Shown here: positions 16,768 to 33,595 of the stretch, piece after piece
Layout: every line of letters starts with the position of its first letter
Position numbering within the stretch: the stretch's first letter is position 1
Assembly: GCA_038734275.1 (NCBI GenBank)
Contig: JAVYOO010000002.1
Location: 158,911 to 222,910, forward strand
Length of the DNA stretch: 64,000 bases
Direction of reading: 5' to 3'
Source: Archaeoglobaceae archaeon
GTDB taxonomy: Archaea; Halobacteriota; Archaeoglobi; Archaeoglobales; Archaeoglobaceae
Program-made: the position numbers and the translations under genes
The notes under the pieces: model-generated
Told to the model about the DNA's origin: nothing
Seen by the model: the letters and a program-made list of their open reading frames with translations, nothing else
Databases searched by the model: none

Positions 16768-16768
16768 C

Positions 16769-17638
16769 TCAATCACTCAAAAGCTCTCTGATCGGAAAAC
16801 AGCTCCCACATTTTGCACAGCCCGCAATTGTTTTCCTTGGGTCTAAATCGCAGTTCTTGACAATTTTGAGCCATTCACTGTAAATTCTCTTAGCGTCTTC
16901 AACACTCGGTGGTGGTAGAGTTTCGAGTTCAGAGCCAAATAGCGGACGAAAAGCTCTCGGCAGAGGAATTGCCCCAACTTCTGCTATAGCTTCGCAACCT
17001 TTTATCGTTTCTTCGGCAGGCTCAAGTCCGATTAGGATCCATGAAGCGCTCTGGTTTTCACCAAAAATCTCTACAGCATTCTCAAGAGCTTCTAAATACT
17101 TATCCCTTGGATAAGCCCGATCCTTCCCGGGAATCATACTCTTCCTTGCGGATTCGCTAAAAGCTTCGATGTTAATGTAGATCGAATCGATTCCCGCATT
17201 TTTAAGCTTCAGCATATCTTCCTTTCCAACAGGGGTTATCTCTATGCCAATTGGGAGATCGCTTACCGCCTTAATGCATTCTGCTGTTTTTGCATAAAGC
17301 TTCACAAGTGCATTTTCATCTAAAGTGCCAGAATTGATGTTCACGTCTTCTGGCTCCACAATACCCTCAAATCCATCAAGATCGACGAACTTTCTGAGCT
17401 CAGCATTGTTTAAAATCTCCTTTATCGCCATAGCAAGATCTTCAGGCTTATGAGTCACTATCTCCTTGCCGATGTCTATTATGCAGAATTTACAGCCCGC
17501 TCTCTCCGCTTTAAATCTACAGGCATTTGTCAAAGCAAGGGCTAAGCTTGATCTCCCATGAAGTCTTATAAGCTCTCCCGCCTTCGTTGAATGCCAGTTC
17601 GGCTCAAAAACAGTCGGTCTGCATACCTTTTGCTCCAT
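16769..17638 (-). CDS. radical SAM protein, main domain
   Basis: This 289-residue protein has an atypical radical SAM cluster motif CX8CX2C, CRFKAERAGCKFC (about residues 38-50). It is preceded by IRLHGRSSLALALTNA, which resembles the start of the radical domain in MSMEG_0568-type radical SAM proteins; this comparison is from memory. Further barrel segments include PIGIEITPVGKEDML and SIYINIEAFSE, and the C-terminus has CAKCGSC, a possible auxiliary-cluster or zinc site. The preceding 95-residue gene in another frame looks like the missing N-terminal domain (see that entry). A lipoyl synthase-like role (LipS-type) is another, weaker possibility. Confidence 0.7.
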   Translation of the reverse strand: MEQKVCRPTVFEPNWHSTKAGELIRLHGRSSLALALTNACRFKAERAGCKFCIIDIGKEIVTHKPEDLAMAIKEILNNAELRKFVDLDGFEGIVEPEDVNINSGTLDENALVKLYAKTAECIKAVSDLPIGIEITPVGKEDMLKLKNAGIDSIYINIEAFSESARKSMIPGKDRAYPRDKYLEALENAVEIFGENQSASWILIGLEPAEETIKGCEAIAEVGAIPLPRAFRPLFGSELETLPPPSVEDAKRIYSEWLKIVKNCDLDPRKTIAGCAKCGSCFPIRELLSD

Positions 17639-17891
17639 TTCTCAGGATCCAGCCCTTTCCATCGATTTTCCTGAATTCAAATGGCGATCTCTCAAGGAAT
17701 GGCTGTAATACTCCCGCATTAACGACGAATTCCTCTTTTTGCCCGGGATTTACAATAAAATTTCTACCGCTTCCCGCAACTCCCGCTCTCGACTTTCCTC
17801 TTGTAGGATAAGCTTTAAGAGACACTCCTTCTTCACTCGTTTTAATGCCGTGGCATAGTAGTTCGATCTTGATCTCAGCTTTTTTGTGCAT
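17604..17891 (-). CDS. N-terminal domain of the radical SAM protein, in a shifted frame
   Basis: This 95-residue frame starts at ATG 17891, about 22 bases after a TATA-like CTTTTAAATCC (17907-17917, minus strand). It has beta-rich sequence with GRNFIVNPGQKEEFVVN and ends DGKGWILRNGAKG..., overlapping the radical SAM frame by 35 bases. Removing one base from the four-base run at 17628-17631 would join the two frames as ...ILRNGAKVCRPTVFEP, continuing straight into the next protein. So this is either a frameshifted single gene or two separately translated chains. Confidence 0.6.
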   Translation of the reverse strand: MHKKAEIKIELLCHGIKTSEEGVSLKAYPTRGKSRAGVAGSGRNFIVNPGQKEEFVVNAGVLQPFLERSPFEFRKIDGKGWILRNGAKGMQTDCF

Positions 17892-17934
17892 AGCCAAATT
17901 CGCCAAGGATTTAAAAGTTCATTGAGAGCAAATA

Positions 17935-19704
17935 TTAAAGAGGTATTGCCCTTAAATAAACCCTCTGGAAATCTCTTTCAGTGGATAATTCCACGTATTC
18001 CACTTTTTTCGCAACTCTTTCAATTTCATCTCTTTGTTTAACTGATTTAAGCGCAATTTTTGCACCGCTGACCGCTGAATCGCCAGCAAATATAACTTCA
18101 CCATTTTTCGGTAGTAAGCCAATTATTCGAGCGTTCTCTAAGTCAACGTGTTTGCCAAAAGATCCCGCAAGGTAAATTCTATCAATCTTTTCTGGATTAA
18201 TTCCAAATCTATCTGCTAAAATCGTCCATCCTGCCTTTATTGCCGCTTTCGCGAGTAAAAACTCATTTATGTCCTTTTCGTTTACAGTTATGTCTTTTCC
18301 AAATTCCGTCTCTTCTGCTCTCGCAATTATAAACTTCGGAACACCATCCCTTATTATCCTGATGCTATCTTTTGAAAACTTCCCATTTCTGTTTATGAAA
18401 CCATTTTTGAAAAGCTCTGCGACGAGATCGATCATTCCACTACCACAAATCCCTTTGGGCCTCTGATTATCAATTGTTTTATAAAAAACCTCCTCCCCTT
18501 TAATTTCAACCTCTTCTATCGCCCCACTCACTGCCTTCATTCCAAAAGTAATGTGTGCCCCCTCAAATGCTGGTCCAGATGGAGTTGAGCACGCTAAAAT
18601 TCTTTCCCTGTTACCCAGCAGGATCTCAGTATTGGTTCCAATGTCTATAACCATCGAAATCTCTTCGGAGTTGTAAATTTTCGTGAGAAGAAGATTAGCT
18701 GTTGCGTCTGCTCCAATAAACCCTGCAATCAGCGGTAAAGAAGTTACCATACCTTCTGGATTTATATTCAGACCAATCTCTCTTGAAGGATAACTTATTC
18801 CTTCGGTAACCGCAGGAGTAAATGGTGCCGTGCCGATGAACTTCGGAGTGATACCAAAAAAGATGTGATGCATCACCGAGTTTCCTACAACTACAGCTTC
18901 GTATATGCTTTCGGGAGAAACTTTTACCATTTCACAAAGCTCTTCTATGAGTTTGTTCAACGCTTCTACAACTAATTTTTGCAATCTCACCAGATTTTCC
19001 TCATTTTTTGCGTAGCTTATCCTCGAAACTATGTCTTCGCCAAAGGCTACCTGAGGATTTTCTGCATAAGCCCTTGCAACGGTTTTTCCACTCTTCAAAT
19101 CTACGAGATGGCAGACTAACTTTGAAGAACCTATGTCAATTGCAAGCCCAAAAAGATTATCGCTTTCTCTGCTTTCAACTGAAATAAGCCTGTTTTTCCA
19201 TAAAACAGCGTTTATTTCCCATTTATTCAGTCTCAGGAGCTCCGGAAGTTTTTTAAGCAAATTCAATGATACTTCAATATCTCCAAGTTTGCTTCTGAGC
19301 CTATCCAAGTCGCTTCTAACGTCTTTGAGATTTGGTTGTTCAAGAGAGATGGGAATTTTTCTAACCACGGTTTCAAGCTCTATTTCAGGCTCAATTGTGG
19401 ATTCCTCTACTTTTCTCTTTTCAAGTCTGCTCTCTTTTGGAATGAAAATTATGGAGTCAGAAAGAACCTTTGTCTGACACGCAAGCCTGTAATTTTGCTG
19501 GATTTCCTCTGATTTCAGGATTTTTCTTTCCGACTCTGTGAGCTCACCAACTTTGCCCTTGATTAAAACCACTTTGCACTTTCCACAAACCCCTCTGCCT
19601 CCACAGTCGGATCTTATGCCAATATTCGAATCTCTGGCTATTTCAAGCAGAATTCCTTCTTTGCTTTCCACGGTTCTGCCAACCGGTTCAAATGTTACCT
19701 TCAT
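17935..19704 (-). CDS. mtoD: corrinoid-protein reactivator (RACE/RamA-like, MtoD candidate)
   Basis: This 589-residue protein uses ATP to restore inactive Co(II) corrinoid to Co(I). Residues 1-95 are a plant-type [2Fe-2S] ferredoxin domain with CGGRGVCGKC and a later Cys in RLACQTK. From about residue 180 comes an ASKHA-type ATPase core: LAIDIGSSKLVCHLVDL, VVGNSVMHHIFFGI, MVIDIGTNTEILLGN and YLAGSFGKHVD. The N-terminal [2Fe-2S] architecture resembles bacterial RACE proteins. It overlaps the MtrH-like gene by four bases (ATGA), supporting service to the corrinoid protein of this operon. The Mto assignment is from operon context. Confidence 0.85.
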   Translation of the reverse strand: MKVTFEPVGRTVESKEGILLEIARDSNIGIRSDCGGRGVCGKCKVVLIKGKVGELTESERKILKSEEIQQNYRLACQTKVLSDSIIFIPKESRLEKRKVEESTIEPEIELETVVRKIPISLEQPNLKDVRSDLDRLRSKLGDIEVSLNLLKKLPELLRLNKWEINAVLWKNRLISVESRESDNLFGLAIDIGSSKLVCHLVDLKSGKTVARAYAENPQVAFGEDIVSRISYAKNEENLVRLQKLVVEALNKLIEELCEMVKVSPESIYEAVVVGNSVMHHIFFGITPKFIGTAPFTPAVTEGISYPSREIGLNINPEGMVTSLPLIAGFIGADATANLLLTKIYNSEEISMVIDIGTNTEILLGNRERILACSTPSGPAFEGAHITFGMKAVSGAIEEVEIKGEEVFYKTIDNQRPKGICGSGMIDLVAELFKNGFINRNGKFSKDSIRIIRDGVPKFIIARAEETEFGKDITVNEKDINEFLLAKAAIKAGWTILADRFGINPEKIDRIYLAGSFGKHVDLENARIIGLLPKNGEVIFAGDSAVSGAKIALKSVKQRDEIERVAKKVEYVELSTERDFQRVYLRAIPL

Positions 19705-20570
19705 ATTGGTATAAAATCCTTTGTTCTTGCAAAGTTTCTGTATGCAATGTTCAGCATGTAAACTGCTGGGAATACGAGCTTTGAATCCTCAATTGGACCA
19801 TATAATGCAAAATCCAAGCCAAATGCTATCTGGAGTGTATTTGCAACAACTACCGCGAACTTTTCCGATTCCTTTCCAAGCAGGTTCCTTAGCCCTTTCC
19901 AGCTCGCGATTGCATTGTGTGCCCCAGAACCGCATGGAAAACCAAAATTCTTCTTTATCTCTACTCCTGCCTTTATCGCCGCTGGAAGACTTGGAACGTC
20001 CATTACAAATGTGTCGACAAGCGGTTTATTGATCCCAGCAATTTCGAGCTTTGGCAAAAGCTTCTGAAAGGCTTCAACTCGTGCCTTGCTACTGAGAACG
20101 TTCATCGTGTAAGTAAGCACAATCGCAGATTCAACACCGCTCTCCTTTAGAGCTATAAGCTCTCTATCCTTTACTTCAGGAGATATAGAGTTGTAGATAA
20201 CTCTTTTCTCAAGCCCCGCCTCTTTTACAAATTTGAGCGCAGAGATTTTTATGTCTGGCATTGCTGAGTCTATCAAAAATGGCTTTTCTGTAATTGATGC
20301 AACAAAATCGATGTATTTTCTCAGAGCTTCTTCACTCATTCCCACAACGTCAACTATCCCCGGAATTTCAGTTTTTTCGCTCAGTTCTTCCTGTTCTTTT
20401 ATCAGCTTTTCTGCAAGCTCTCTGTTGAAGTGCCCCTTTTTCTCGTCCTCAACGATCTTATGTCCTTTATAAAATATGCTCCCTATAAGCAGGGTTTTGC
20501 TCTCCCCAGGATTCCCTCCAACTTTTATTCCACAAATTTCGAAGATTTTTGGTTGTGCAAACCTCAGCAT
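19701..20570 (-). CDS. mtoA: MtrH-like methyltransferase (MtoA candidate)
   Basis: This 289-residue protein is of the MtrH family, TIM-barrel enzymes that move a methyl group between a corrinoid and a tetrahydropterin. Typical stretches are ICGIKVGGNPGESKTLLIGS, DVVGMSEEALRKYIDF, KPFLIDSAMPDIKI and GFPCGSGAHNAI. No other Mtr subunits are present, so it is not part of the methanogen membrane complex. In the Mto system such a protein moves the methyl group from the corrinoid protein to tetrahydromethanopterin. The start has GAGGTGG upstream and overlaps the end of the MFS gene by seven bases. Confidence 0.87.
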   Translation of the reverse strand: MLRFAQPKIFEICGIKVGGNPGESKTLLIGSIFYKGHKIVEDEKKGHFNRELAEKLIKEQEELSEKTEIPGIVDVVGMSEEALRKYIDFVASITEKPFLIDSAMPDIKISALKFVKEAGLEKRVIYNSISPEVKDRELIALKESGVESAIVLTYTMNVLSSKARVEAFQKLLPKLEIAGINKPLVDTFVMDVPSLPAAIKAGVEIKKNFGFPCGSGAHNAIASWKGLRNLLGKESEKFAVVVANTLQIAFGLDFALYGPIEDSKLVFPAVYMLNIAYRNFARTKDFIPI

Positions 20571-21799
20571 TTTTCCACCTCCTTAGCATATTTTGCACCA
20601 AATAAGACCACTGCGGTTGCAAAGAAATGCAAAAATGCTGCTAAATAGAGAGCAGAGAGATAAGATGTCGTAGCATCTCTTATTAATGAGCCCAAATAAG
20701 GACCAATGATTGAAGAAGTCATCACAGAAGTGTTCAAAAGTGCAGTAATCCTTCCTGTGAACTTCTTTCCAAAGAAGGTTGGGACTGCAGTGAAATGCAC
20801 CGTTGGCTCACCGCCAAGACAAAAGTAAACCAGAATTCCAAAAACCAGGACGAGTAATGCATCTGAATACGTTATTGCGAAAACAAATATCATCACTCCC
20901 GCAACAGCGTAGAGAATCGGCAAAACTTTGAAAGGTCCTCCTGCCCTGTCGTTAAAGGCACCCCAGAATAAGGAGCCGAAAGCACTACCAATTGCAGTTA
21001 TGCTGAGAAATAACGGGATAAAGTGGTTTGAAATATACTCTGGACTAAAAGAATCCCTGGACAAACCCTCTAAAACAATTGTTGCTACATTCATTAGAAT
21101 CAGAAACCATGCGGTTGCAGTTGAGAACATCACGGTAAAAAGAATCCAGAATCTCGTATCCTTTAAAGCGTCACCGAGCGACGAGTCGGTTTCGGATTTA
21201 GAAGCTTCAGGAACACACCAAAATAATACGCCAACTACGTAAAATGTTGCAAATATTATAAATCCCAGCACGATGAAGGTAGTTTGGAGACCATGGTTAA
21301 TTATAAGAAAAGCCACAAGAGGGGAGATAAAAAGTGGTGAAATATTCTGTCCAAAGATTGAAATTCCGAATGCTTTTCCTATGTTTTCAGGAAACCATCT
21401 TGCAATAACCACCGGATAAGTTCCTACAAAGAAACCCGCTCCAATCCCAACAACAAAGCTTCCTGCATACCAGAACAGCTTTGCAATTTCCCACTCAGCA
21501 TAGCTAAAGGCCATCGAAATGATATACATCCCAAGCAGGTAAGCAAGCCCGGATATAGCAACTGTTGGCTTTGGTCCAAATCTGTCGGCCAAAAATCCTG
21601 CAACGAGCTGAAAAATTAACATTCCAAGCCCAATTAGCGAGGCAGATAAGACTACTGGAGAGATTTCATTTAGAGAATATCTCTCTATTATGTAAGGGTA
21701 AAACTGACTCCATACCAAGGAAACCATCGCAAAAACCAAGAGAAAGGCGACTGTTGCTGGATAGAGATTTTTATGCTTCTCGCTTAAACCAAAGTTCAT
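20564..21799 (-). CDS. MFS carrier within the methyltransferase operon
   Basis: This 411-residue protein has 12 predicted helices and resembles the OFA (oxalate/formate antiporter-like) branch of the major facilitator family. FLADRFGPKPTVAI is the conserved loop after helix 2, and ARWFPENIGKAFGI follows helix 4. It lies between the URO-D-type methyltransferase gene and the MtrH-like gene, with overlaps or tight spacing, so its cargo is probably the methylated substrate or the demethylated product. Confidence 0.85.
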   Translation of the reverse strand: MNFGLSEKHKNLYPATVAFLLVFAMVSLVWSQFYPYIIERYSLNEISPVVLSASLIGLGMLIFQLVAGFLADRFGPKPTVAISGLAYLLGMYIISMAFSYAEWEIAKLFWYAGSFVVGIGAGFFVGTYPVVIARWFPENIGKAFGISIFGQNISPLFISPLVAFLIINHGLQTTFIVLGFIIFATFYVVGVLFWCVPEASKSETDSSLGDALKDTRFWILFTVMFSTATAWFLILMNVATIVLEGLSRDSFSPEYISNHFIPLFLSITAIGSAFGSLFWGAFNDRAGGPFKVLPILYAVAGVMIFVFAITYSDALLVLVFGILVYFCLGGEPTVHFTAVPTFFGKKFTGRITALLNTSVMTSSIIGPYLGSLIRDATTSYLSALYLAAFLHFFATAVVLFGAKYAKEVEKC

Positions 21800-21826
21800 G
21801 TAGCCACCGGATAAATAAAAAATTAT

Positions 21827-23080
21827 TTAATATTTTCCATACTTCTTCACGGCATCCAGCATTGCCTTTACATTCTCGGGCTTTGCATCTCTTGAAAGTC
21901 CACCGTCGACACCTGGCCAGATCATCATCCCGCCCTCTTTGCAATCCTCAAGAAGCTTTTTCATGAACTCCTCAACTTTTTGTGGAGTTCCGCTGATTAG
22001 CAGAGAGTTTGGAGGACCACTTACAAGAATGATGTGGTTATCAAGGACTTCTCTAACCTTTCTTGGGTCTGTTTTTTCAAAAACGCCGACTATTTTACCC
22101 TTAGGCGCTTCGAGCAAAGTTTCCAGATGTGCATCATGTTTACCTTCGAAAAGAACAAACGGCGTTAGACCCATTTTTATTACTTCCTTGAAAACATCGT
22201 TCAGTGCAGGCCAGTAGAATTCGTTGTATAGCTTTGGATTTAAATATTCATTCAGGTGGAGCGGGAAGAAACACTCAACGATTTCTGTTCCAAAAATCTG
22301 CTTTCTTATTTCTTTAGGTGGAGCTGAGCAGGCGGCAGCTTTTATTATTAACGGCTTGACTGCTTCGACAGCCTGCTTTACCTTGTCCCCGTGTCTGTAG
22401 AGATCCATTACTACGTTCTTTATATCTCTCAAAAAGTCACCAATTAAGTCAAGTGGGGCATACCCCCAGGACATTGGAATCGTTGGATATCCAAGCTTTG
22501 CAAGCTCTACAGAGACATCAGCCATGAAGGCTCCAAATCTTGCAAGCTCAGCTCCGTATTTAACAAGCGCAGCATTGTATTCTGCTGATCCAACTTTGCC
22601 AAGCTTTTTATTGATTCTTGGCATGGCAACTTTATTTATGAACTCAAGTGGATTCTCAATGAGCTGGTCGTACTCGCTTGCTTTCATGATTTCCTTACCT
22701 ATGAATTGTGGATGAGCGTTTTTGTCGAGTTCATAGCCGGGCCATTTAGAGTAAACGTCTCCAAGTGCAAGATGAGTTGCTCCAAGGATGAATCTTGCAG
22801 CTGAGGACATATCGGGCTGTTCAAGTAGGGCAATTGTGTAAATCATGCCCTCAAGCCCAGCAATAACTGTGAATGTGTCGAAGTCAAAATCTCTTGCAAC
22901 CTTCAGCCAAGCGGACTTGCACTTTGAATAATCGAAGAGAACTTCATGAGTTGTATATCCCGCATAAGCTCCGTGCCAAACTGCAGTTGCCCCCGTGACT
23001 GGCACTCTGTCGGGTTCCTTACCATTTATCACGTCCTCTATTCTTTTAAGCTTCTCCTTTCTCGTATTTTCAGAATCCAT
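21827..23080 (-). CDS. mtoB: URO-D-family corrinoid methyltransferase (MtoB candidate)
   Basis: This 417-residue protein is of the uroporphyrinogen decarboxylase/MtaA-type superfamily, which includes zinc-dependent corrinoid methyltransferases. Features are the N-terminal INGKEPDRVPVTG (about residues 12-24), the central FFPLHLNEYLNPKLYNEFYWP and the C-terminal GGMMIWPGVDGGLSRDAKPENVKAM, the usual end of the barrel. In this operon it would take a methyl (perhaps O-methyl from methoxylated aromatics) and load it onto the corrinoid protein encoded just upstream, whose stop is one base away. Substrate is inference; MtaA/MtbA-type use of coenzyme M is less likely next to an MtrH-like partner. Confidence 0.82.
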   Translation of the reverse strand: MDSENTRKEKLKRIEDVINGKEPDRVPVTGATAVWHGAYAGYTTHEVLFDYSKCKSAWLKVARDFDFDTFTVIAGLEGMIYTIALLEQPDMSSAARFILGATHLALGDVYSKWPGYELDKNAHPQFIGKEIMKASEYDQLIENPLEFINKVAMPRINKKLGKVGSAEYNAALVKYGAELARFGAFMADVSVELAKLGYPTIPMSWGYAPLDLIGDFLRDIKNVVMDLYRHGDKVKQAVEAVKPLIIKAAACSAPPKEIRKQIFGTEIVECFFPLHLNEYLNPKLYNEFYWPALNDVFKEVIKMGLTPFVLFEGKHDAHLETLLEAPKGKIVGVFEKTDPRKVREVLDNHIILVSGPPNSLLISGTPQKVEEFMKKLLEDCKEGGMMIWPGVDGGLSRDAKPENVKAMLDAVKKYGKY

Positions 23081-23081
23081 T

Positions 23082-23717
23082 TTAACTCACCCCCAGCAAG
23101 GCCTTGATCTTCTTAACACCGACAGCTGCATCATCCGCCCATTCGTCGGCTTGGGTGTAATTCTTGACTTCTTCACTTGTTCTTCCGCCTCCAACGATAA
23201 TCTTAACTCTGTCTCTTAGACCAGCTTCTTTTATTGCATCAATGGTTCTCTTCATGCTCTCTATTGCTTCGGTAAGCAAACCACTAAGTCCAACAATTTG
23301 TGGATTATACTGCTTTATGGCGTCAACAAATGCCTGCGGAGGCTGATCTACGCCTAAATCGACTACTTCAAATCCTTCAGCTTCAAGCAAGGCTATGACG
23401 ATGTTCTTTCCTATATCATGCACATCTCCTTCAACACTGCCAATGACAACCTTTCCTCTGCTCTCCGCTTTCTTATCGCCGAGCAAAGGCTTCAAGAGTT
23501 CCATGACTTGCTTTAGAATCTCTCCTGCCATTATTAGATCCGAGACGAAGTATCTGCCCTCTTCAAATCGCTTTCCGATTATTTCTGTTGCTTTTCTGAT
23601 GTCCTCAAGAATCTTAAACGGGTCTTCTTTGTTCTCTATTCTCTTTTTGGCAATTTCTATCACTTTCTGCTCATCAAGATCTGCAAGAGCCCTTACAAAT
23701 TCGTCTCCTAAATTCAT
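23082..23717 (-). CDS. mtoC: corrinoid (methyl-carrier) protein (MtoC candidate)
   Basis: This 211-residue protein has an N-terminal helical cap and a C-terminal B12-binding Rossmann domain. GDVHDIGKNIV carries the cobalt-ligating His (DxHxxG), followed by VGLSGLLTEAI and IIVGGGRTSEE, which complete the pocket. It matches the MtaC/MtbC/MttC size. I choose ATG 23717, which has AAGGTGG six bases upstream, over GTG 23726. It would carry the methyl group between the URO-D-type and MtrH-like enzymes. Confidence 0.92.
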   Translation of the reverse strand: MNLGDEFVRALADLDEQKVIEIAKKRIENKEDPFKILEDIRKATEIIGKRFEEGRYFVSDLIMAGEILKQVMELLKPLLGDKKAESRGKVVIGSVEGDVHDIGKNIVIALLEAEGFEVVDLGVDQPPQAFVDAIKQYNPQIVGLSGLLTEAIESMKRTIDAIKEAGLRDRVKIIVGGGRTSEEVKNYTQADEWADDAAVGVKKIKALLGVS

Positions 23718-23780
23718 GGCAACCACCTTAATTTATTCAAATACCTTCAAAATAAAGCTTTTTAAGAATGTGTTCATAAC

Positions 23781-23794
23781 AATAAAATTTTATT
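23781..23794. promoter_or_regulatory. perfect 14-base AT palindrome upstream of mtoC
   Basis: AATAAAATTTTATT reads the same on both strands and sits about 65 bases before the corrinoid-protein start, in the only gap (115 bases) inside the operon. It could be an operator or simply AT-rich promoter sequence. Confidence 0.3.
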
Positions 23795-23832
23795 TCAAGT
23801 AAAATTTTGTGGACATGCAAAAGGTTAAAAAA

Positions 23833-25014
23833 TCATTTAACTTTAGGCGGTTCTGGAATCAGGAATGCGAAAATGCCCTGAATTGCAAACAGAAGTGCTG
23901 AAACTGCAAAGGCGGTTGTAAAACCATAAATCACTGCAATTGGAGCGATTATAAAAGGTGTGCTCACAAAAGCTCCTATGCACAGGAATGTGTTTATTAC
24001 TCCCGCAGAACCACCGACCCATTCTGGTTTCATTTTAGAATCAACTGCTGGCAGATAAGCTGGTAAAGCCATCCAGTGGGGAATAACTCCACCAGCTAAG
24101 AAGCCAGCAATTGTTATTGCAATCCAGAGCACAGTAATTTCGCCAATGAGCCAGCCAAGGTAAACAAGAACTGAGAAGGCTACTGACAGCAATAAGATGT
24201 ATAACCTTACACCACCAGTTTTTGAACTCAGAATCGGGAAAATCAGCGAGCCTATCCAGCCAGACCAAGTTATCATGGCAACTATCGCCCCAGCGGTTGC
24301 AATGTCTATGCCCTTTTCCATAGCTGCAGCGGTTGTGAAGAGGGCTTGGAATGGAACCATGCCCGCCATTGCTGTGAAAGTTCCGAGAGAGGTTGCAAGA
24401 ATTGCCTTATTTGTGAGTGATTTCTTGGCTCCTTCAAGAACGTTTGCCTTTGGAATCGTAACTCCAGGAGGTGCATCCCTTACTAATACGATAAAGAAGA
24501 TCGCTGCCAAGCAGATTAGGATTCCCCCGTATAGATTTATCTCACTCCAACTATTGAAATAGGGAGCCAGAGTTAAGCCCAATGAAAGCCAGATCATTAG
24601 AGCAGTCATGTAGATCCCTGTAGCAAGCCCTACTTGCTGTGGCGGGAACCAGGCACTTATGATCTTTGGAAGATTTACAAGTGTGAACCCTAATCCGATA
24701 CCGAGCAATATTTGGGCCAAAATCAGAGAACTGAAATCTATGCTCTGAGCTTTCAAAAATGTTCCAACTGCTGCTACGAGAACACCTGCTGTCGCAGTCG
24801 CTCTAATACCGAACTTATCAGCAATGATACCTGCTGGAAATGCCAGAATACCTGCGATGAGCCATGGAACTGTAAAAGCCAATGAATATTGAGTCTGGTC
24901 GACACCATAAAGCTTTATCAGAATAGGTGCAAGCGTTCCCATTGCATACCATGCAAATACCAATGAGCCAAACAGGAACCAGGAAACTGCAAGAATTATC
25001 CATTTACTTCTCAT
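23833..25014 (-). CDS. MFS carrier at the head of the methyltransferase operon
   Basis: This 393-residue protein has 12 predicted helices, with FPAGIIADKFGIRATATA as the family loop after helix 2 and SAWFPPQQVGLATGIYMT after helix 4. ATG 25014 is chosen because GGAGGTGAT lies just before it. It lies on the same strand as the corrinoid system and 115 bases upstream of it. It may import methoxylated aromatics or export their demethylated products; the sequence does not settle direction. Confidence 0.83.
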   Translation of the reverse strand: MRSKWIILAVSWFLFGSLVFAWYAMGTLAPILIKLYGVDQTQYSLAFTVPWLIAGILAFPAGIIADKFGIRATATAGVLVAAVGTFLKAQSIDFSSLILAQILLGIGLGFTLVNLPKIISAWFPPQQVGLATGIYMTALMIWLSLGLTLAPYFNSWSEINLYGGILICLAAIFFIVLVRDAPPGVTIPKANVLEGAKKSLTNKAILATSLGTFTAMAGMVPFQALFTTAAAMEKGIDIATAGAIVAMITWSGWIGSLIFPILSSKTGGVRLYILLLSVAFSVLVYLGWLIGEITVLWIAITIAGFLAGGVIPHWMALPAYLPAVDSKMKPEWVGGSAGVINTFLCIGAFVSTPFIIAPIAVIYGFTTAFAVSALLFAIQGIFAFLIPEPPKVK

Positions 25015-25088
25015 CTCATCACCTCCAAGCAAAAGAGGGAATAGGATTTTGGAAATAAAATCTGTTATGAAGTTGTTATGAAAAAGGT

Positions 25089-25688
25089 TCAGTTCAGAAC
25101 TCGTATAAAGATCCTCTCACCGCTTATCTCGAATTCCGCCTTCACGCCCAGCTGTTCATAGACGCTCTTTATAATCGACTTCGTGACTACCACGTTTTCT
25201 GGGACAGTTCGAAATATGAATTCGTTCTCCTTAACCCTCTTAAACTCCCCTCCTCCACCGAATTCAATCGTTTTTAAAACTTCTTCCGCTTTCTCTGTGC
25301 TTTTTGTATTCTCCCCCCACTTGTGCCAGATGTAGAAAAGATTTGCAAAGCCTCGAATACCTTTCAAAAATTCCTCATCCTTTTCTATTTCTTCTGCAGA
25401 ATACTTCTCCTGAACCTTCTTCATTAAAACCCTGTATAGCTCCTTGTCCATGATCACGTATTGCTTCATTTCAACGTTGTAAATGTGATATGCAATCCTT
25501 TCGAAGTCCTTGGGAAGCTTATCAATGCTATAACCAGCAACCCTGAAGGCTTTAAAAACTCTCCAGTAAATTTCCAAAGCGTTGCGGAAGATCTGGCTAT
25601 AGCTTTCAAATCCCTCTTTGAGCAAGTCTTCAAGCATTTTCAACTCGCTGTCTGTCAGTGCAACAGTGATTCTGTGAAAAAGCCTCAT
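25089..25688 (-). CDS. ribbon-helix-helix regulator, candidate for the methyltransferase operon
   Basis: This 199-residue protein starts RITVALTDSELKMLEDLLKE, followed by GFESYSQIFRNALEIYW, a classical RHH DNA-binding domain (residues 6-40). The following region has no family I recognise, and a glycine-rich stretch near residue 148 leads into a final beta-strand-rich domain that could bind an effector. It lies on the same strand just upstream of the first MFS gene, 74 bases away. I infer a role in controlling the operon or itself. Confidence 0.65.
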   Translation of the reverse strand: MRLFHRITVALTDSELKMLEDLLKEGFESYSQIFRNALEIYWRVFKAFRVAGYSIDKLPKDFERIAYHIYNVEMKQYVIMDKELYRVLMKKVQEKYSAEEIEKDEEFLKGIRGFANLFYIWHKWGENTKSTEKAEEVLKTIEFGGGGEFKRVKENEFIFRTVPENVVVTKSIIKSVYEQLGVKAEFEISGERIFIRVLN

Positions 25689-25776: not shown

Positions 25777-26226
25777 TCATTCAAGACCATTTATTATGCT
25801 ATAAACCCTTTCCACAATCGAATCGAGCATCAATTCAAGCTCAGGAGACATTTTCTCTGAAATCGTATAGGGCTCCTTAACCCCGATGCCAATTACTACC
25901 AATTTTTTTGGCACAGATAAATTCAGAGCCTTCATGAGTTCAATTGTCTCTGGAAGTCCCGCATAATGCGGAGATTTGGAAAATCGAATCTTTAAGTCCT
26001 CCAAATTGTCAATTAAAACGATCTCTCCCACTTTACCCTTAATGCTGTCCACAACAAAAACAGTCTCGTGACCAGCAATGTAGTCGATCAGCGTATAGCC
26101 CATTCTTTCCAAGATTTTTACTTCAAAACCTTCAGCTTCAAGCTTCTCTTTCAGCTTTTCGCCAACAATTAAGCCAATTCGGTCGTCTGAGTAAATCGGA
26201 TTGCCCAAAAATAAAATTAAAGGCAT
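25777..26226 (-). CDS. hydrogenase maturation protease
   Basis: This 149-residue protein resembles the HyaD/HycI endopeptidases, which trim the C-terminus of [NiFe]-hydrogenase large subunits after metal insertion. It starts LILFLGNPIYSDDRIGLIVGE, with the Asp of SDDRIG fitting a nickel ligand and DSIKGKVG later. It lies 10 bases after the large-subunit gene, whose product has a removable tail after its last Cys/His motif. Confidence 0.88.
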   Translation of the reverse strand: MPLILFLGNPIYSDDRIGLIVGEKLKEKLEAEGFEVKILERMGYTLIDYIAGHETVFVVDSIKGKVGEIVLIDNLEDLKIRFSKSPHYAGLPETIELMKALNLSVPKKLVVIGIGVKEPYTISEKMSPELELMLDSIVERVYSIINGLE

Positions 26227-26236
26227 AAAATAAAAA

Positions 26237-27691
26237 TTAATGAATAACTCTCAGCAGTTCTCCATTGGTGTTGTAGATATAAATGGGCACAGGCATTGAG
26301 CCCGGCAATGTGTGAGTTCCGCAGGCATTGCATGGATCGTAGGCTCTGAATGCCATTTCTACCATGTTCAGCAGTCCATCGTTCACAACTCCGCCTTTGA
26401 TCAAGCTTCTCGCTGCCTTGTCAACAGACATCGAAATCCTGCCGATGTTGTGCTGTGTGGCGACGAGCAAGTTCGCCCTCTTAATCACTCCTCTCTCGTC
26501 GGTCTCGTAGTGATGGATCAAAGTCCCTCTTGGTGCCTCAACAACTCCAATGCCAACACTTGGTTTTTCGGTTGGCAGATTTCTTACGTTCTGGTCCAAA
26601 ATATCTGGATCGTTAGCGAGCTCCTTTATGCGTTCAGCAGCATAGAGCATTTCAATGACTCTCGCCCAGTGCATCGCAAGAGTTTGATGAGCTGGCTTTC
26701 CAAGTTTTTCGAACATCTCTTCGTAGGCTTCCTGAGCCAATGGTGTTGCCATGCCCTCAGCTGCGTTAAGCCTTGCAAGCGGTGCTACCGCATATATTCC
26801 GCTCTGCTCCCCGTCAATAAGCCCTTTCCAGCCGATCTTCCTCAAATAGGGGAACGTCATGTAGCTCCAAGGCTCCACATGTTCAGCGATGTAATCCAAG
26901 TAGTTGTGCACATCGAACTTTGCATATTCTTTGCCATTCGGATCAACAACTCTAAGCATGCCGTCGTAGAAGTTTACCCGATTCTTGTTGTCGACGAGAC
27001 CCATGTAGTATGTGCGATGAGTGTAAGCATCGCTCGTGATCAAGTCTAAATACTTCTTGTTTTTCAGCACTATGTCCTTGAAAACGTTCAGAGTGAATTG
27101 GGCAAATTCAACTCCCTGCTCTCCAAGGGCTTTTAGATCTTTAACGATCTCCTCATTTAAAGGCTTTGAAATTCCTCCAGGAACTCCAAAGACTGGGTGA
27201 ATTGTTTTGCCACCAATTCTCTCCATCATCTGCCTAATGCTCTTTCTCATCCCTATTACCTTGAGCCCAACTTCCTGCCCAACCTTTTTGATCACTCCAA
27301 CAACGTTTCTCTCCTCCTTTGGAGCATCTGGTCCAACAATGAAGTCAGGACCTCCGAGGATGTAAACGTGCAAGGCATGGTCTTCAAGCATGAAAAGGTT
27401 GTAGAAGAGTTCCCTGATCTTCTTTGCCGCTACAGGTGGATCAACCTTGTAGAGGTCGTCTAAAGCCTTAGTAGAGGCCATGTGGTGTGCTGTCGGGCAA
27501 ACACCGCATATTCTTGATGTAATCTGTGGCATGTCTTCTGCATGTCTGCCTTCGGCAAACTTTTCAAAACCTCTGAACTCTGGGACTTGGAAAAATGCTC
27601 TAACGCAATTTCCTTTGTCGTCAAGAATTATTACGATCTTTCCATGTCCTTCAAGTCGGGTAATTGGGTCAATAACGATCTCCTTGCTCAT
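26237..27691 (-). CDS. mvhA: F420-non-reducing hydrogenase large subunit (MvhA)
   Basis: This 484-residue [NiFe]-hydrogenase large subunit carries both active-site cysteine pairs: RICGVCPTAHH (about residues 60-70) and DPCNACGTH near the C-terminus. About 24 residues follow the final His and would be removed by the adjacent protease. The N-terminus IDPITRLEGHGKI is typical. It is co-transcribed with mvhG and mvhD (overlap of four bases with mvhG) and would split H2 in a cytoplasmic Mvh-type module. Confidence 0.95.
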   Translation of the reverse strand: MSKEIVIDPITRLEGHGKIVIILDDKGNCVRAFFQVPEFRGFEKFAEGRHAEDMPQITSRICGVCPTAHHMASTKALDDLYKVDPPVAAKKIRELFYNLFMLEDHALHVYILGGPDFIVGPDAPKEERNVVGVIKKVGQEVGLKVIGMRKSIRQMMERIGGKTIHPVFGVPGGISKPLNEEIVKDLKALGEQGVEFAQFTLNVFKDIVLKNKKYLDLITSDAYTHRTYYMGLVDNKNRVNFYDGMLRVVDPNGKEYAKFDVHNYLDYIAEHVEPWSYMTFPYLRKIGWKGLIDGEQSGIYAVAPLARLNAAEGMATPLAQEAYEEMFEKLGKPAHQTLAMHWARVIEMLYAAERIKELANDPDILDQNVRNLPTEKPSVGIGVVEAPRGTLIHHYETDERGVIKRANLLVATQHNIGRISMSVDKAARSLIKGGVVNDGLLNMVEMAFRAYDPCNACGTHTLPGSMPVPIYIYNTNGELLRVIH

Positions 27692-28719
27692 ATCTCAACC
27701 ACCTCCTTTATTCGCTTCGGCTTCTTTATCCCTGCCTTATGGCTGAGCTTTGAAGCAGCAAGAGAATATCTGTAAATAGTTCCGATCCAATCCGGAATGC
27801 CATCAAAAGCTTTCTTGATCTCCTTTTCCTCCACTGGCGAATAATCGAGAATACTTCCGAAATAAGAGATTGCCTTGCCACCGTAGTCAACAATGCCGTC
27901 AAGCAATCCAAAGCAACCAGTGCAGGGCATGTTGCCTTTGATGCAAAGCGCTGTGCACCCGCCTCTTGTAACTGGACCCATGCATAGGAATCCCTGAGCA
28001 AGCAAACACTTGTTTGGCTCAGGCTTAGCTTTGTCCGGTCTCTTGAATTCCTTAACAAGGACTTTTTCAGGCTTTGTTTCATTCAAGGAACATTCGTCAC
28101 AAAGCGATCTGTTTGAAGCACCAACTATTGCCCCCTTTGGAGGTAAATTACCGCTCAGCAACGCCTGCAGAGCATTCCAGAAAACATCTGGAGTTGGTGG
28201 GCAACCCGGAATATAATAGTCAACATCTATAACCTTGTCAAGCGGTAGAAGAACTGGAAGTGGTTCTGGAAGTTCAAGCTCAGCCTTCATTTTCGCTTCT
28301 GGAATGTTGACGATAATCTTCTTTGTTGGCAAAACTTCTTTTGGATTTTCGATCGTCGGGACTTCTAAATACTTTCTTTCGAGAGCTTCATCCAGATTGT
28401 AAAGATTTGCAAGCCCCGGAATTCCGCCCCAAGCAGAGCAAGCACCATAGGCTATAACGATCTTCGACTTCTTCCTGAGCAGTTTTACCATCTCCTCGTG
28501 CTCCTTCAGCCTAATCCCGCCGTTGATTAGCGCAACAGTGATTGAGCCATCTGGAAGCTTTTCAACATCTTCTCTCTTGAAATCCATCGCAACTGGACAG
28601 AATACGATATCAACAGCCTCGAAGACTTTCAGCAGTCTCTCCGCTAAGTCTACGAAAGATTCCTCACAGCCACCGCATGAAGCACACCAATACCACGCTA
28701 CCTTTGGCTTCTCGCTCAT
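27688..28719 (-). CDS. mvhG: F420-non-reducing hydrogenase small subunit (MvhG)
   Basis: This 343-residue protein begins KVAWYWCASCGGCEESFVDL, the proximal [4Fe-4S]-binding motif of group 3 small subunits. Further cysteines occur in YIPGCPPTPDVF, SLCDECSL and the CLLAQGFLCMGPVTRGGC to CIKGNMPCTGCFG region, enough for the three clusters of the electron wire. It lacks a Tat signal, so the enzyme is cytoplasmic. Four-base overlaps join it to mvhA and mvhD. Confidence 0.94.
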   Translation of the reverse strand: MSEKPKVAWYWCASCGGCEESFVDLAERLLKVFEAVDIVFCPVAMDFKREDVEKLPDGSITVALINGGIRLKEHEEMVKLLRKKSKIVIAYGACSAWGGIPGLANLYNLDEALERKYLEVPTIENPKEVLPTKKIIVNIPEAKMKAELELPEPLPVLLPLDKVIDVDYYIPGCPPTPDVFWNALQALLSGNLPPKGAIVGASNRSLCDECSLNETKPEKVLVKEFKRPDKAKPEPNKCLLAQGFLCMGPVTRGGCTALCIKGNMPCTGCFGLLDGIVDYGGKAISYFGSILDYSPVEEKEIKKAFDGIPDWIGTIYRYSLAASKLSHKAGIKKPKRIKEVVEI

Positions 28720-29153
28720 TCTCTCACCTCCAAATTGGGCTTCAGTGGACCAAGTTTCTTCAGCTGAGCGACCATTTCATTCACAACTTGCACCCATCTG
28801 CTCGCCTCCGCAGCTGAGATCCATTCAAGTCTAAAGCGTTCTTGCTCAATTCCCATTGTCTCGAGAAGCTTTCTAAAAAGCTCGAATCTTCTGTAGGCTT
28901 TGTAATTTCCCTCGATGTAGTGGCAATCAGCAGGTGGATGACATCCCGCAACAATTACACCGTCTGCCCCGTCAGCGAACGCCTGAAGAACGAACTGCGG
29001 GTCAACTCTACCAGAGCACATGACTCTAATGATCCGAACGTTCGGCGGATAGCTCATTCTGCTTGTTCCCGCGAGATCTGTGGCTGCATAAGTGCACCAG
29101 TTACATGCATATACAACGATCTTTGGCTCAAATTCTCCTTTAGAGTCAGACAT
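28716..29153 (-). CDS. mvhD: MvhD electron-transfer subunit
   Basis: This 145-residue [2Fe-2S] protein links Mvh hydrogenases to HdrA. Its cysteines are seen in VYACNWCTYAATDLAG, VMCSGRVDPQFV and VAGCHPPADCHY, as in MvhD/FlpD proteins. The start overlaps the upstream HdrA gene by eight bases. Its presence between the hydrogenase genes and HdrA suggests a physical complex. Confidence 0.94.
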   Translation of the reverse strand: MSDSKGEFEPKIVVYACNWCTYAATDLAGTSRMSYPPNVRIIRVMCSGRVDPQFVLQAFADGADGVIVAGCHPPADCHYIEGNYKAYRRFELFRKLLETMGIEQERFRLEWISAAEASRWVQVVNEMVAQLKKLGPLKPNLEVRE

Positions 29154-31098
29154 TCATCTCACCTCCAAAAACCGCTCTCGTTTGAGCCAAAAGCTGAATG
29201 TCCTTGAAGCCAAGATGTTGCATTGCACCACTCGGACATGCTGCATTGCACGTTCCACAACCCATGCAAAGGGCTTTTTCAACATATGCAATCCTGTCCC
29301 CGTTCACTTTCTTTATTGAGATCGCTGAATAGGGGCAAACACCAACACAGATCGCGCAACCACTGCATTTCTCCTCATTAACCTGGGCAATCATTGGCTC
29401 TATTGTTATTTTACCCTTTGAAAGCAAAGACATTGCCTTCGCAGCTGCAGCGGAACCCATTCTGATGCTTTCAAGAATGTTCTTTGGCCCGGTAATGCAT
29501 CCAGCAAGGAATATGCCCTTGGTTGGAGCTTCAACTGGAGCAAGCTTCAAGTGAGCCTCTCTTACAAAGCCTTCGCCACCACAGCTTACTCTCGTTACCG
29601 CAATTAGCTCCTCTATGTCTCTTGGCGGAAGCATGCCTATTGAGAGCACAATCGCATCCACGGGTATTCTGATGTTCTCCTGAATTGTGTATTCAAAGAC
29701 GTCTATAAACAATCCCTCAGGTGTTATCGAAACCTTTGGGATCTTGTCTTCGAATTTTATGAACTGAACAAGCTTTTTGCCCGCCTCCTCATAAAGCGTC
29801 TCGTCGCTTCCATAGGTCATTATGTCTTTGTAAAGGATATAAACGTTCGTATCTGGATATTTCTCCTTGATCTTGATTGCACTGTTAATTGCGGTGGTGC
29901 AACACATTCTTGAGCAGTATTCCTTTGCTCCGGGGGTTGTGTTTCTCGAGCCTACGCACTGGATAAAGGCTATGCTTTTTGGAACTTTGCCTCCAATAAT
30001 GAGCTCTCCTTTGGTTGGGCTTTCGGGATCGAGCAATCTTTCGAGCTGGAATAGCGTTATTATGTTCTGATGGAGTCCATAGCCGTATTCACCCTTGAAG
30101 GGTCTGTATGGATCGTAACCCGTAGCAATAATCACCGACCCTACCTTTAACTCTATTGTCTTCGGCTCTTCTTTCAGATTTATTGCTCCGAATCTGCAAA
30201 CTTTTTCGCATTCTCCGCATTTAACGCAAACTCTGTAGTCGATTGCATAGTAAGGCGGATAGGCATTGCTAAACGGCAGAAAGATCGCTTTCCTTTTATT
30301 CAAACCGAAGTTGTATTCATTCGAAACCTCTATTGGGCAAACTTCTTCACATTCCCCGCATAGTGTGCATTTCTCATTAACGTATCTCGGGTTAATTCTG
30401 ATTTTGGCATTGTAATTTCCAGCAAAGCCACTCAGCTGAATAAGCTCAGCATTCGTCAAAACCTGAATTCTCGGGCAATCCTTAATTCTGTCAAACATCT
30501 TGCTCACAACGTCCGGTCCTTTCGTTTTTGGATCTATGTAACCTATTAAAGCCGCTTTACCTCCTATAGTGGGAGCTTTTTCAACCAGATAAACGTTAAA
30601 TCCGTAGTTTGCAAGCTCCAGTGCTGCTCTCATTCCCGCAACTCCACCACCCAATACGAGAGCGCTTGGTTCTGCCTTTACTTCGAGCTCTTCCAATGGT
30701 TCGAGATGTCTTGCTTTTGCCACAGCCATTCTAACGATCTCCTTTGCCTTTTCAGTAGCCTTCTCCTTGTCGTGATGCACCCAGGAGCAGTGTTCTCTGA
30801 TGTTCGCCATCTCGAGCAAGTATTTGTTTAGCCCCGCCTCGCTTACAGCGGTTCTGAAAGTGATCTCATGCAGAGATGGTGAGCATGCAGATACAACAAC
30901 CCTGTTCAAATTGTGAGCCTTTATGTCTGCCTTTATGAGATCCTGTCCAGGCTCGGAGCACATGAAAACGTAATCCTTTGCAACAACCACATTTGGTAGA
31001 GTTTTGGCAAATTCCGCCACCTTCTTCACGTCAACTGTTCCCGCAATATTAAAACCGCAGTGACATACATAAACTCCTATTCTTGGCTCTTCAGTCAT
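29146..31098 (-). CDS. hdrA: HdrA-type flavin and iron-sulfur protein
   Basis: This 650-residue protein resembles full-length HdrA. It has an N-terminal YVCHCGFNIAGTV domain, an FAD-binding Rossmann loop (LVLGGGVAGMRAALEL, about residues 147-162), inserted ferredoxin motifs CTLCGECEEVCP and CVKCGECEKVC, and two more at the C-terminus, CSGCAICVGVCP and CMGCGTCNAACP. HdrA is the site of flavin-based electron bifurcation in methanogens. QmoB of sulfate reducers is a close relative. The start overlaps the second HdrA-like gene by four bases. Confidence 0.88.
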   Translation of the reverse strand: MTEEPRIGVYVCHCGFNIAGTVDVKKVAEFAKTLPNVVVAKDYVFMCSEPGQDLIKADIKAHNLNRVVVSACSPSLHEITFRTAVSEAGLNKYLLEMANIREHCSWVHHDKEKATEKAKEIVRMAVAKARHLEPLEELEVKAEPSALVLGGGVAGMRAALELANYGFNVYLVEKAPTIGGKAALIGYIDPKTKGPDVVSKMFDRIKDCPRIQVLTNAELIQLSGFAGNYNAKIRINPRYVNEKCTLCGECEEVCPIEVSNEYNFGLNKRKAIFLPFSNAYPPYYAIDYRVCVKCGECEKVCRFGAINLKEEPKTIELKVGSVIIATGYDPYRPFKGEYGYGLHQNIITLFQLERLLDPESPTKGELIIGGKVPKSIAFIQCVGSRNTTPGAKEYCSRMCCTTAINSAIKIKEKYPDTNVYILYKDIMTYGSDETLYEEAGKKLVQFIKFEDKIPKVSITPEGLFIDVFEYTIQENIRIPVDAIVLSIGMLPPRDIEELIAVTRVSCGGEGFVREAHLKLAPVEAPTKGIFLAGCITGPKNILESIRMGSAAAAKAMSLLSKGKITIEPMIAQVNEEKCSGCAICVGVCPYSAISIKKVNGDRIAYVEKALCMGCGTCNAACPSGAMQHLGFKDIQLLAQTRAVFGGEMNV

Positions 31099-32429
31099 TT
31101 AACCACCTCCGTTGGGCAGGAAAACCTTTTTGCTATTAGCGCAGCCCTCGCTGCCGCAGCACTTGCTTCAGTCACAGAATCGGGAATATCCTTCGCTCCC
31201 GCCACCGCTCCAACAACAAAGATCCCCTCAACTGTTGTTGAGACTGGATCCAGATAGGGATCCTTTAGCTTGATAAATCCGTCGGGAGTTAACTCAACAG
31301 GCAGTGGGAGCTTCGAGTTTGGAGTTATTGCTACTGAAAGGACAACCATGTCGTATTCATCTGCCTTCAAATAGCTCTCAGCCGTGTCTTCGTAGATAAT
31401 TTTCAAATTCTTAGTCTCTGGAATTTCATCGATCCTTACAACTTTGCCACGGATATAGTTGATTCCGAATTCCTTCTTGGCTCTCTCCAAAAACTCATTA
31501 AAGCCTTTTCCAAATGCTCTTATGTCCATGTAGTAAATCGTGCACTGAACTTCGGGCAAATGCTCTTTTGCAAGGATTGCCTGCTTGGTTGCGGCCATGC
31601 AGCAGTAGGCTGAACAGTAGTGGTTAAACCTTATGTCTCTTGATCCAACACACTGGATCCATGCAATCCTCTTTGGATGCTTTCCATCAGATTTCCTAAC
31701 AATTTCACCGTTTGTCGGTCCAGTAGCTGAGACGAGTCTCTCGAACTCAAGGTTAGTATAAACATTCTGGTGTTTACCATAGCCCAATTCAGGTAAGTTC
31801 CTTGGGTCGTAAAGCTCCATTCCTGTAGCAACTATGACTGCTGCGACGTTTAACTCCAGAATCTCTGGCTGTTGATCGTATCTAATGGCTTTTGTTGGGC
31901 AGTTTCTTTCGCACACACCACATATCGGCCCTTTTGCCTTCTCCTTTACTTTAGGAGGTGGATTCAATCTCATGCAATGCTCCGCATCGATGACAGCTCT
32001 TTTAGGCACAGCCTGTGGAAACATTATATAGATCGCTCTTCGAGTTGACAATCCCATGTTGTATTCATTCGGTACATCTTTAACGGGGCATTTCTCCGTG
32101 CAAACTCCGCATCCATTGCACTTGCTCCAGTCCACGTAAGTGGGTTTTTTGAGAATTTTAACCTTGAAATTTCCTGCTCTACCGCTTATTTCTTGGACCT
32201 CTGAGTTCATAATGAGCTTTATATTTGGATACCTAAGCAAAGCTGCCATTTTTGGAGCTAAAATGCATGAAGCGCAGTCAAGAGTGGGGAAAGTCTTATC
32301 GAGGTAAGCCATTTTTCCTCCAACACTCGGAGCTTTGTCCACCAAGTAAACATCAATTCCTTGTTCAGCCAGATCCAATGCTGCCTGAATTCCCGCAACT
32401 CCTCCGCCTACAATTAAAACCGAACTCAT
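31095..32429 (-). CDS. short HdrA-like (QmoA/HdlA-like) subunit
   Basis: This 444-residue protein starts with VLIVGGGVAGIQAALDLAEQ, an FAD-binding loop, then a standard ferredoxin motif CNGCGVCTEKCP and a second, spread-out one ending GPICGVCERNCP. It lacks the N-terminal domain and C-terminal ferredoxins of the neighbouring HdrA, so it resembles QmoA. ATG 32429 has AGGTGAT upstream and is preferred over TTG 32435. Two HdrA-type chains of different length side by side is the QmoA/QmoB arrangement. Confidence 0.8.
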   Translation of the reverse strand: MSSVLIVGGGVAGIQAALDLAEQGIDVYLVDKAPSVGGKMAYLDKTFPTLDCASCILAPKMAALLRYPNIKLIMNSEVQEISGRAGNFKVKILKKPTYVDWSKCNGCGVCTEKCPVKDVPNEYNMGLSTRRAIYIMFPQAVPKRAVIDAEHCMRLNPPPKVKEKAKGPICGVCERNCPTKAIRYDQQPEILELNVAAVIVATGMELYDPRNLPELGYGKHQNVYTNLEFERLVSATGPTNGEIVRKSDGKHPKRIAWIQCVGSRDIRFNHYCSAYCCMAATKQAILAKEHLPEVQCTIYYMDIRAFGKGFNEFLERAKKEFGINYIRGKVVRIDEIPETKNLKIIYEDTAESYLKADEYDMVVLSVAITPNSKLPLPVELTPDGFIKLKDPYLDPVSTTVEGIFVVGAVAGAKDIPDSVTEASAAAARAALIAKRFSCPTEVVK

Positions 32430-32431
32430 CT

Positions 32432-33550
32432 TCAATCACCTCTAAAGTATCCTGCACGTGCTCCGATATAATAAGCGATTACCTTGTAAAGCCAGTGGGT
32501 GTGCTTTCCAAATGCAAATTCGAGCAATAGGAATGGTATCGTAAAGCTCAGGAAGAGTGCAAGGGCAATGTAGGCGTAGAATACCATCCCAAGATCATAG
32601 AGCACAAATACGAGCAGAATCATCAGAGCTACTGGAAGTAATGTTATTAGAGACATCCAGTCAGTCGGATGTGTGAATTTCTTGTAATACCAGTGTGTTT
32701 TTTCACCTGCAGTCAATCTCTTCATAACAGGAGATGCTACACCAATCAAGAAGGTCAAAGACGCTGCGTATATCAGCAGTCTGGAGATAACTTTGAAATC
32801 GAAGAATTTAGGAACGAGCAGGTATAGAATTCCAAGCAGTATGAAAAGACCTAAGCCAATTAGTATCAGAGTATGTTCGAGTATTCTTTCCCTCTTATGC
32901 GCCACTTTCATTGCATCGCTTTCAACTCTAATGAAAAAGTTTGCTATATACTTCAATGATTTAATCAAGCCAACTTCTTTCTTTTTGTCTTTACTCATGA
33001 ACTTATAGGCCCTATAGCCGTTCGAAGCAAGTATTGCAACGCTTATAACGAAAACAATAGCAACAGGGATTAAAAGTTTCGAAAGAACTACGAGCTTACC
33101 TGTAGAGGCGTATGATACAATGCTCTGCCAGAAGAATCCAAAGTAGAGAAGCAGTGAAAGACCCAAGATTGCAAGGTAGGCCATGAGCTTAGAGGCAAAT
33201 GAAGAAGTGTTCCACCACTTCGTAATACCAGTCCAGTCGTATTTAATCGACTGATATCTCCTTATTGCTGCCAAAATCTCTGAGGGGCTTGCTCCTCTCG
33301 GGCAGCTGTCTGTGCAGTCACCATGGAGATTGCATGACCAAGGAGAGATATCGCCGAGGATTTTCTCTTCCACTCCAAGCTGTGTATATCGAATGGCTCT
33401 TCTGAAACTTACATCGAGCTCTTCTGAGAGCGGACAAACCGCAGTGCATGAACCACACTGGTAGCATTCAAGTAGACTTTTTCCACCGAGTTTAAAGACT
33501 TCTCTGTTTACATTTGGATTTATTGAAATAAACTCACTTCCACCAACCAT
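32432..33550 (-). CDS. HdrC-like iron-sulfur/cytochrome b-type membrane protein (QmoC-like)
   Basis: The N-terminal 110 residues form an HdrC-like domain with CYQCGSCTAVCP and a second motif CNLHGDCTDSCP, in which the second canonical Cys is His. The remaining sequence has about six membrane helices with several histidines, like the heme b domain of HdrE/NarI. This fusion is the architecture of QmoC, which links Hdr-type proteins to menaquinone. Start is uncertain: ATG 33550 is chosen (372 residues), but GTG 33595 is possible. It is first in the operon. Confidence 0.78.
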   Translation of the reverse strand: MVGGSEFISINPNVNREVFKLGGKSLLECYQCGSCTAVCPLSEELDVSFRRAIRYTQLGVEEKILGDISPWSCNLHGDCTDSCPRGASPSEILAAIRRYQSIKYDWTGITKWWNTSSFASKLMAYLAILGLSLLLYFGFFWQSIVSYASTGKLVVLSKLLIPVAIVFVISVAILASNGYRAYKFMSKDKKKEVGLIKSLKYIANFFIRVESDAMKVAHKRERILEHTLILIGLGLFILLGILYLLVPKFFDFKVISRLLIYAASLTFLIGVASPVMKRLTAGEKTHWYYKKFTHPTDWMSLITLLPVALMILLVFVLYDLGMVFYAYIALALFLSFTIPFLLLEFAFGKHTHWLYKVIAYYIGARAGYFRGD

Positions 33551-33595
33551 CCAAACCACTCTCCGTCTCGACCAAGTCTTTTTAACGTTTTTCAC

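Follow-up and report, generated by a model that had tools for sequence, protein, structure and literature searches.

What does a corrinoid methyltransferase operon do in a heat-loving archaeon of the family Archaeoglobaceae, and where does the methyl group that it handles go? The operon lies in a 64,000-nucleotide stretch of DNA (the window, G000:C2:158911-222910) from a genome of 1.73 Mb in 12 contigs, 99.46% complete and with 0% contamination. We consider it likely that this is a complete Mto operon of an mcr-positive Archaeoglobaceae methanogen, which would carry methyl groups from methoxyl groups to methane, with a ribbon-helix-helix (RHH) protein probably in control. A reading made from the sequence only had placed seven genes on one strand between 17935 and 25688, separated by short gaps or overlapping, and all the open reading frames were found there:

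25089..25688, minus strand: RHH protein, candidate mto regulator, with a CopG-type N-terminus and a C-terminal alpha-beta-beta domain.
23833..25032, minus strand: MFS transporter 1 (Pfam), probable start ATG 25014.
23082..23726, minus strand: MtoC-like corrinoid protein, cobalamin motif DVHDIG, 80% identity to AF_0006.
21827..23080, minus strand: MtoB-like O-demethylase, an MT1 of the URO-D superfamily, 82% identical to AF_0007.
20564..21799, minus strand: MFS transporter 2, between mtoB and mtoA.
19701..20570, minus strand: MtoA-like methyl-corrinoid:pterin methyltransferase of the MtrH family, distinct from the MtrH of the same genome.
17935..19704, minus strand: MtoD-like reductive activase of the RACo type, with 2Fe-2S and ASKHA parts.

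From the RHH gene through MFS1, mtoC and mtoB to MFS2 the gaps are 56, 106, 1 and 27 nt, and mtoA and mtoD follow with overlaps of 7 and 4 nt. Judging by the Shine-Dalgarno positions, MtoC probably starts at an ATG 9 nt within the listed frame, and MFS1 18 nt within its frame. The families first assigned by eye have Pfam matches far above chance: B12-binding (1e-27) and B12-binding_2 (1e-16) for MtoC, URO-D (4e-14) for MtoB, MtrH (9e-101) for MtoA, RACo domains (5e-84) for MtoD, and MFS_1 (1e-34 and 9e-32) for the two carriers. NCBIfam models mostly score below their equivalog cut-offs on the mto genes, which is expected since the Mto system has no model of its own.

A maximum likelihood tree of 43 rows was built for the demethylase, leaving out Methermicoccus MtoB and bacterial MtvB/OdmB/VdmB. 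It contains an MtoB clade with 100/100 support that holds the window protein, SKYB18, JZ_75 and A. fulgidus AF_0007, and the window protein is nested there among other Archaeoglobaceae proteins. Other proteins of the operon are also related to those of A. fulgidus (G040), with identities of 63% for MtoA, 60% for MtoD, 54% for MFS2 and 43% for the RHH protein. MtoA shares 70% identity with PDB 8z9u, against about 40% with the window genome's own MtrH; the latter is encoded in a separate, complete mtr operon, and MtoA thus stands outside the Mtr complex. The locus combines an MT1 of the MtoB clade, a corrinoid protein with a cobalamin motif, a non-Mtr MT2 of the MtrH family and a RACo-type activase, with linkage of A, B, C, D and MFS genes. 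The operon belongs to the known Mto family, with methoxylated aromatics as the substrate predicted by homology. The resemblance to Mto that had been proposed from the letters is borne out by this grouping and by a gene order equal to that of AF_0006-0010; AF_0006-13 were induced during growth of A. fulgidus on 2-methoxyphenol (PMC8359953). O-demethylation assays were run on purified Methermicoccus MtoB/C/D (PMC8630106).

The gene set and order of the window are repeated in independent genomes of the family, where mto is present in 8 of 55. The order RHH-C-B-MFS-A-D is common to G033, G045, G001 and G040; the last we take to be A. fulgidus VC-16, and its mto cluster lies at the place expected for AF_0006-0010. 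An Asgard archaeon, Jordarchaeum, has RHH-C-B-MFS(-A) as far as its contig end. MFS2 sits between mtoB and mtoA in Jordarchaeum and in all Archaeoglobaceae loci that span the interval, while MFS1 is linked to mto in the closest relatives only. An identical MtoB protein is encoded in the Archaeoglobales MAG JZ-3_D_bin_138 (L034). The mtoB1 and mtoB2 genes of A. fulgidus (L022:8181-9431 and L022:14126-15373) do not differ in their first 60 nt, whereas identity is 45-75% in the middle and 83-98% in the final 400 nt, a pattern that suggests gene conversion. The JZ_75 MAG (L024/L025) has an identical stretch running into the start of mtoB and near-identical ends, and both contigs break there. One member of the phylum has four mtoB-like genes close together (G161:C3:304433-312964).

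The first gene of the operon had been read as an RHH regulator, and this is upheld for the family more firmly than for the window copy. In the alignment of 8 proteins of this family, 7 match Pfam RHH_1 (best 4e-11), whereas the protein encoded in the window gives no RHH_1 match. The structure model has an N-terminal helix-helix, with the strand unresolved in the monomer, and a PDB sequence search returned only CopG, at E 0.4. In a Foldseek search with the model the top matches were designed proteins, followed by H-NOX and TRAPP/Bet3 at E 0.03-0.2. This is suggestive of a V4R/H-NOX/TRAPP fold for the C-terminal domain, by a weak match that is not secure, and Pfam gives no V4R match in the protein. 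V4R occurs in the aromatic-sensing domains of XylR/DmpR. With a strong full-length match (E below 1e-80) as the definition of a homologue, the RHH protein is present in exactly the 8 mto-positive genomes and in 0 of the 47 others. The homologue of the JZ_75 MAG (G009), 68% identical, is encoded at G009:C8:158177-158767 (L131:8177-8773), away from the mto contig ends; the regulator gene can thus be unlinked from mto.

The DNA upstream of MFS1 and of mtoC carries elements on which such a protein could act:

25064..25082, minus strand: direct repeat TTCATAAC-N3-TTCATAAC, candidate operator upstream of MFS1, with an 11-bp period and 0 mismatches.
23762..23779, minus strand: inverted repeat TTATGAA-CACA-TTCTTAA, candidate operator upstream of mtoC, with one mismatch to the consensus.
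23749..23757, minus strand: TATA-like box directly downstream of the inverted repeat, its position relative to the repeat being kept in relatives.

The inverted repeat TTATGAA-N-TTCATAA precedes mtoC in the Archaeoglobaceae mto loci that were read and in Jordarchaeum; the second mtoC of A. fulgidus is without it. The pattern TTATGAA-N(3-6)-TTCATAA was searched genome-wide in the 55 Archaeoglobaceae genomes. Both matches in A. fulgidus are at mto, before mtoC and before the MFS gene AF_0008. G033 and G045 have one match each, upstream of mtoC, and G009 has one upstream of an mtoC truncated by the contig end; the mtoC site of G001 shows a 1-bp deletion relative to the pattern. For G000 and G004 the search gave one 3-base-spaced site off mto (G000:C1:468027), and among mto-less genomes a 4-base-spaced site occurs in a single case, G023. 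A reversed control pattern matched in five genomes (G023, G031, G042, G035 and G015), so isolated chance matches do happen. In the 64 kb of the window the mtoC site is the sole one with at most one mismatch, where 0.1 are expected. The core of the direct repeat has a single match per genome in G000 (1.73 Mb), G003 and G004, upstream of MFS1, and six chance-like matches in six other genomes. Half-sites are 11 bp apart in both the inverted and the direct arrangement, and the site adjoins the TATA-like box.

The co-occurrence of the RHH protein with mto, together with the conservation of the sites, leads us to propose that the protein binds them. It looks like a dedicated mto regulator, and it could act by repression or by activation. 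An alternative that touches regulation only is that the sites bind some other factor or are a promoter element, the RHH protein acting elsewhere. The pairing of protein and sites is a prediction, and no matching site lies ahead of the RHH gene in the window, which leaves some room for this idea. It is nevertheless rather doubtful: protein and sites occur together in mto-positive genomes and are both common to Jordarchaeum, and half-sites spaced one helical turn apart fit pairs of RHH dimers.

The fate of the methyl group depends on the host. Its genome encodes complete McrBDCGA (L130) and MtrEDCBAFGH (L129), whose subunits match specific models, nearly all over the curated cut-off, with McrD just under. 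Mto, complete Mtr and complete Mcr are thus found together in one genome, which also encodes an MtaCBA set with a RamA-type activase (L128). DsrA was not found in it, and MTTB trimethylamine methyltransferase was found in none of the 14 genomes searched, this one included. By gene content the host is a methanogen; in contrast to A. fulgidus, it is not a sulfate reducer. This fits what has been published on the Ca. Methanomixophus / Ca. Methanoglobus group. The sequence-only reading, right about Mto itself, had overlooked both this methanogen gene content and the conserved candidate operator. Two mcr-positive relatives (G009 and G001; L080 and L081) encode fusions of about 598 aa that join an MtaA-like domain to a corrinoid-binding domain; such a fusion was not found in the window genome.

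The electron supply may be encoded next door:

25777..26226, minus strand: hydrogenase maturation protease, a neighbour outside mto.
26237..33595, minus strand: MvhA-MvhG-MvhD-HdrA-HdrA-QmoC cluster, the upstream neighbour of mto.

The junction of mto and the Mvh cluster is kept in two relatives (L026/L034 and L027/L035), and methane-forming Ca. M. hypatiae expresses an Mvh-Hdr-Qmo cluster of the same type at a high level (PMC10945360). Beside the QmoC end lies a type III RubisCO gene (window 33755-35053, plus strand). On the other side, downstream of mtoD (window 15919-17906, minus strand), a 100-aa reading frame overlaps a radical SAM gene (MSMEG_0568-like); the MSMEG_0568-like model begins about 96 residues before the radical SAM frame, and the two frames may represent one gene that is split or has a frameshift. 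L034 and L035 show this arrangement as well. This interval also holds a solute-binding-protein-like gene (SsuA/NMT1), by eye without an obvious signal peptide. The radical SAM and solute-binding-protein genes were left out of the operon because their linkage to mto is confined to the closest relatives.

The proposed pathway would begin with the MFS carriers, which may bring methoxylated aromatics inward, export hydroxylated products, or both. MtoB would enable attack on the aryl methyl ether by MtoC in its Co(I) state; the products would be CH3-Co(III)-MtoC and a phenol, and MtoA would pass the methyl group from MtoC to tetrahydromethanopterin. MtoD would re-reduce inactive Co(II)-MtoC at the expense of ATP. 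From CH3-H4MPT the methyl group would most likely reach CH3-CoM through the sodium-pumping Mtr and then methane through Mcr, since the genome has both complexes in full; for this step, and for the direction of carbon flow, gene content is our guide. Electrons could be supplied by H2, by way of the neighbouring Mvh-Hdr-Qmo complex, or by oxidation of part of the methyl groups. The upstream RHH protein would probably control mtoC and the MFS genes through sites of the TTATGAA-N4-TTCATAA type beside the TATA box.

A genuine Mto system that feeds methyl groups through the Wood-Ljungdahl branch to acetyl-CoA or CO2, as was proposed for A. fulgidus, and not to methane, is an unlikely alternative. 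Such a fate has a precedent, as A. fulgidus runs Mto without Mcr (PMC8359953; McrA was not found in G040), and MtoA delivers to H4MPT, an intermediate shared by both routes. The window genome, however, has intact Mcr and Mtr and no DsrA. Moreover, mto is present in 4 of the 5 mcr-positive genomes of its genus, and both DsrA-positive members of that genus are without mcr and without mto in the available sequence.

Two readings concern the substrate of the URO-D protein, and both were rejected. The first is a Cdm-type methyltransferase that dehalogenates haloalkanes (chloromethane): Cdm has the same three-part architecture, and CdmB is the best solved relative over the full length. The substrates of CdmB are haloalkanes, not methoxy aromatics (PMC13222342); with CdmB as sister to MtoB, a shift of substrate within the URO-D superfamily is possible. 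This identity is very improbable here, as CdmB clusters with Lokiarchaeal proteins in the sister group and outside the MtoB clade, the window protein is close to the methoxyphenol-induced AF_0007, and two MFS carriers fit aromatics rather than a gas. Lokiarchaeal MtoC-MtoB-like gene pairs (L046, L047 and L048), whose MtoB homologue clusters with CdmB, are candidate haloalkane systems, which fits what the 2026 Cdm paper reports for Asgard archaea. The second reading takes the protein for a methylcobamide:CoM methyltransferase of the MtaA/MtbA type, part of a system for methanol or methylamines. Here the shared Pfam family and weak matches to MtaA/MtbA models count for next to nothing against the phylogeny that had been named beforehand as a check (the genome's own MtaA, part of its separate MtaCBA set, is placed far from MtoB) and the absence from the window MtoB of the HxC...C motif that this MtaA has. 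In MtaA/MtbA enzymes this motif provides the zinc ligands.

No report of Mto in mcr-positive Archaeoglobi was found in the searchable literature, where coverage is incomplete and absence is not proof, nor was an identified regulator or operator for archaeal mto. Proven methanogenesis in cultivated Archaeoglobi has so far been from methylamines, and methanol has been proposed. With a complete Mto operon beside Mvh-Hdr-Qmo in mcr-positive genomes, a direct route to methane is predicted for methoxylated aromatics in hot springs. The predicted route enters at H4MPT and so uses the sodium-pumping Mtr; entry at this point is the energetic question raised for Methermicoccus. A wider reading can be offered tentatively: methanogenic Archaeoglobi might subsist in part on lignin-type methoxyl groups through a self-regulated mto cassette, shared with Jordarchaeum (presumably by transfer) and functionally coupled to Mvh-Hdr-Qmo. 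The cassette of this tentative reading would comprise an RHH regulator whose second domain senses aromatics, an 18-bp operator with half-sites spaced by one helical turn, two carriers and MtoABCD. The candidate regulator-operator pair could also be used to recognise functional mto loci in genomes.

Among known systems, CdmBCA of Acetobacterium dehalogenans likewise pairs a URO-D-type MT1 and its corrinoid protein with an MT2 that depends on a pterin, but it belongs to a separate clade and has another substrate, and MFS carriers are not mentioned in the accessible part of its description. Ca. Methanoglobus hypatiae and Ca. Methanomixophus resemble the host as Archaeoglobaceae with Mcr and Mvh-Hdr-Qmo; Ca. 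Methanomixophus also has Mtr, M. hypatiae is without DsrAB, and the substrates described are methylamines and methanol, respectively (PMC10945360, PMC7380581). A term search of these two texts did not find Mto. Methermicoccus shengliensis (BP07_RS03235-60) has MtoA, B, C, D and MFS carriers in a methanogen, as the window does. Its operon reportedly includes an unnamed transcriptional regulator, and entry of the methyl group at H4MPT was proposed (PMC8630106). It differs, by description and not by sequence comparison, in having two MtoB proteins, MtoB1 and MtoB2, and a different arrangement of the cluster. The closest counterpart is AF_0006-AF_0013 of A. fulgidus VC-16, with the same C-B-MFS-A-D order, the same upstream RHH gene and the same candidate operator. 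A. fulgidus differs by an additional C-B pair, by the presence of Dsr and by the lack of Mcr and Mtr, whereas the window has an additional MFS gene between the regulator and mtoC and adjoins the Mvh-Hdr-Qmo cluster.
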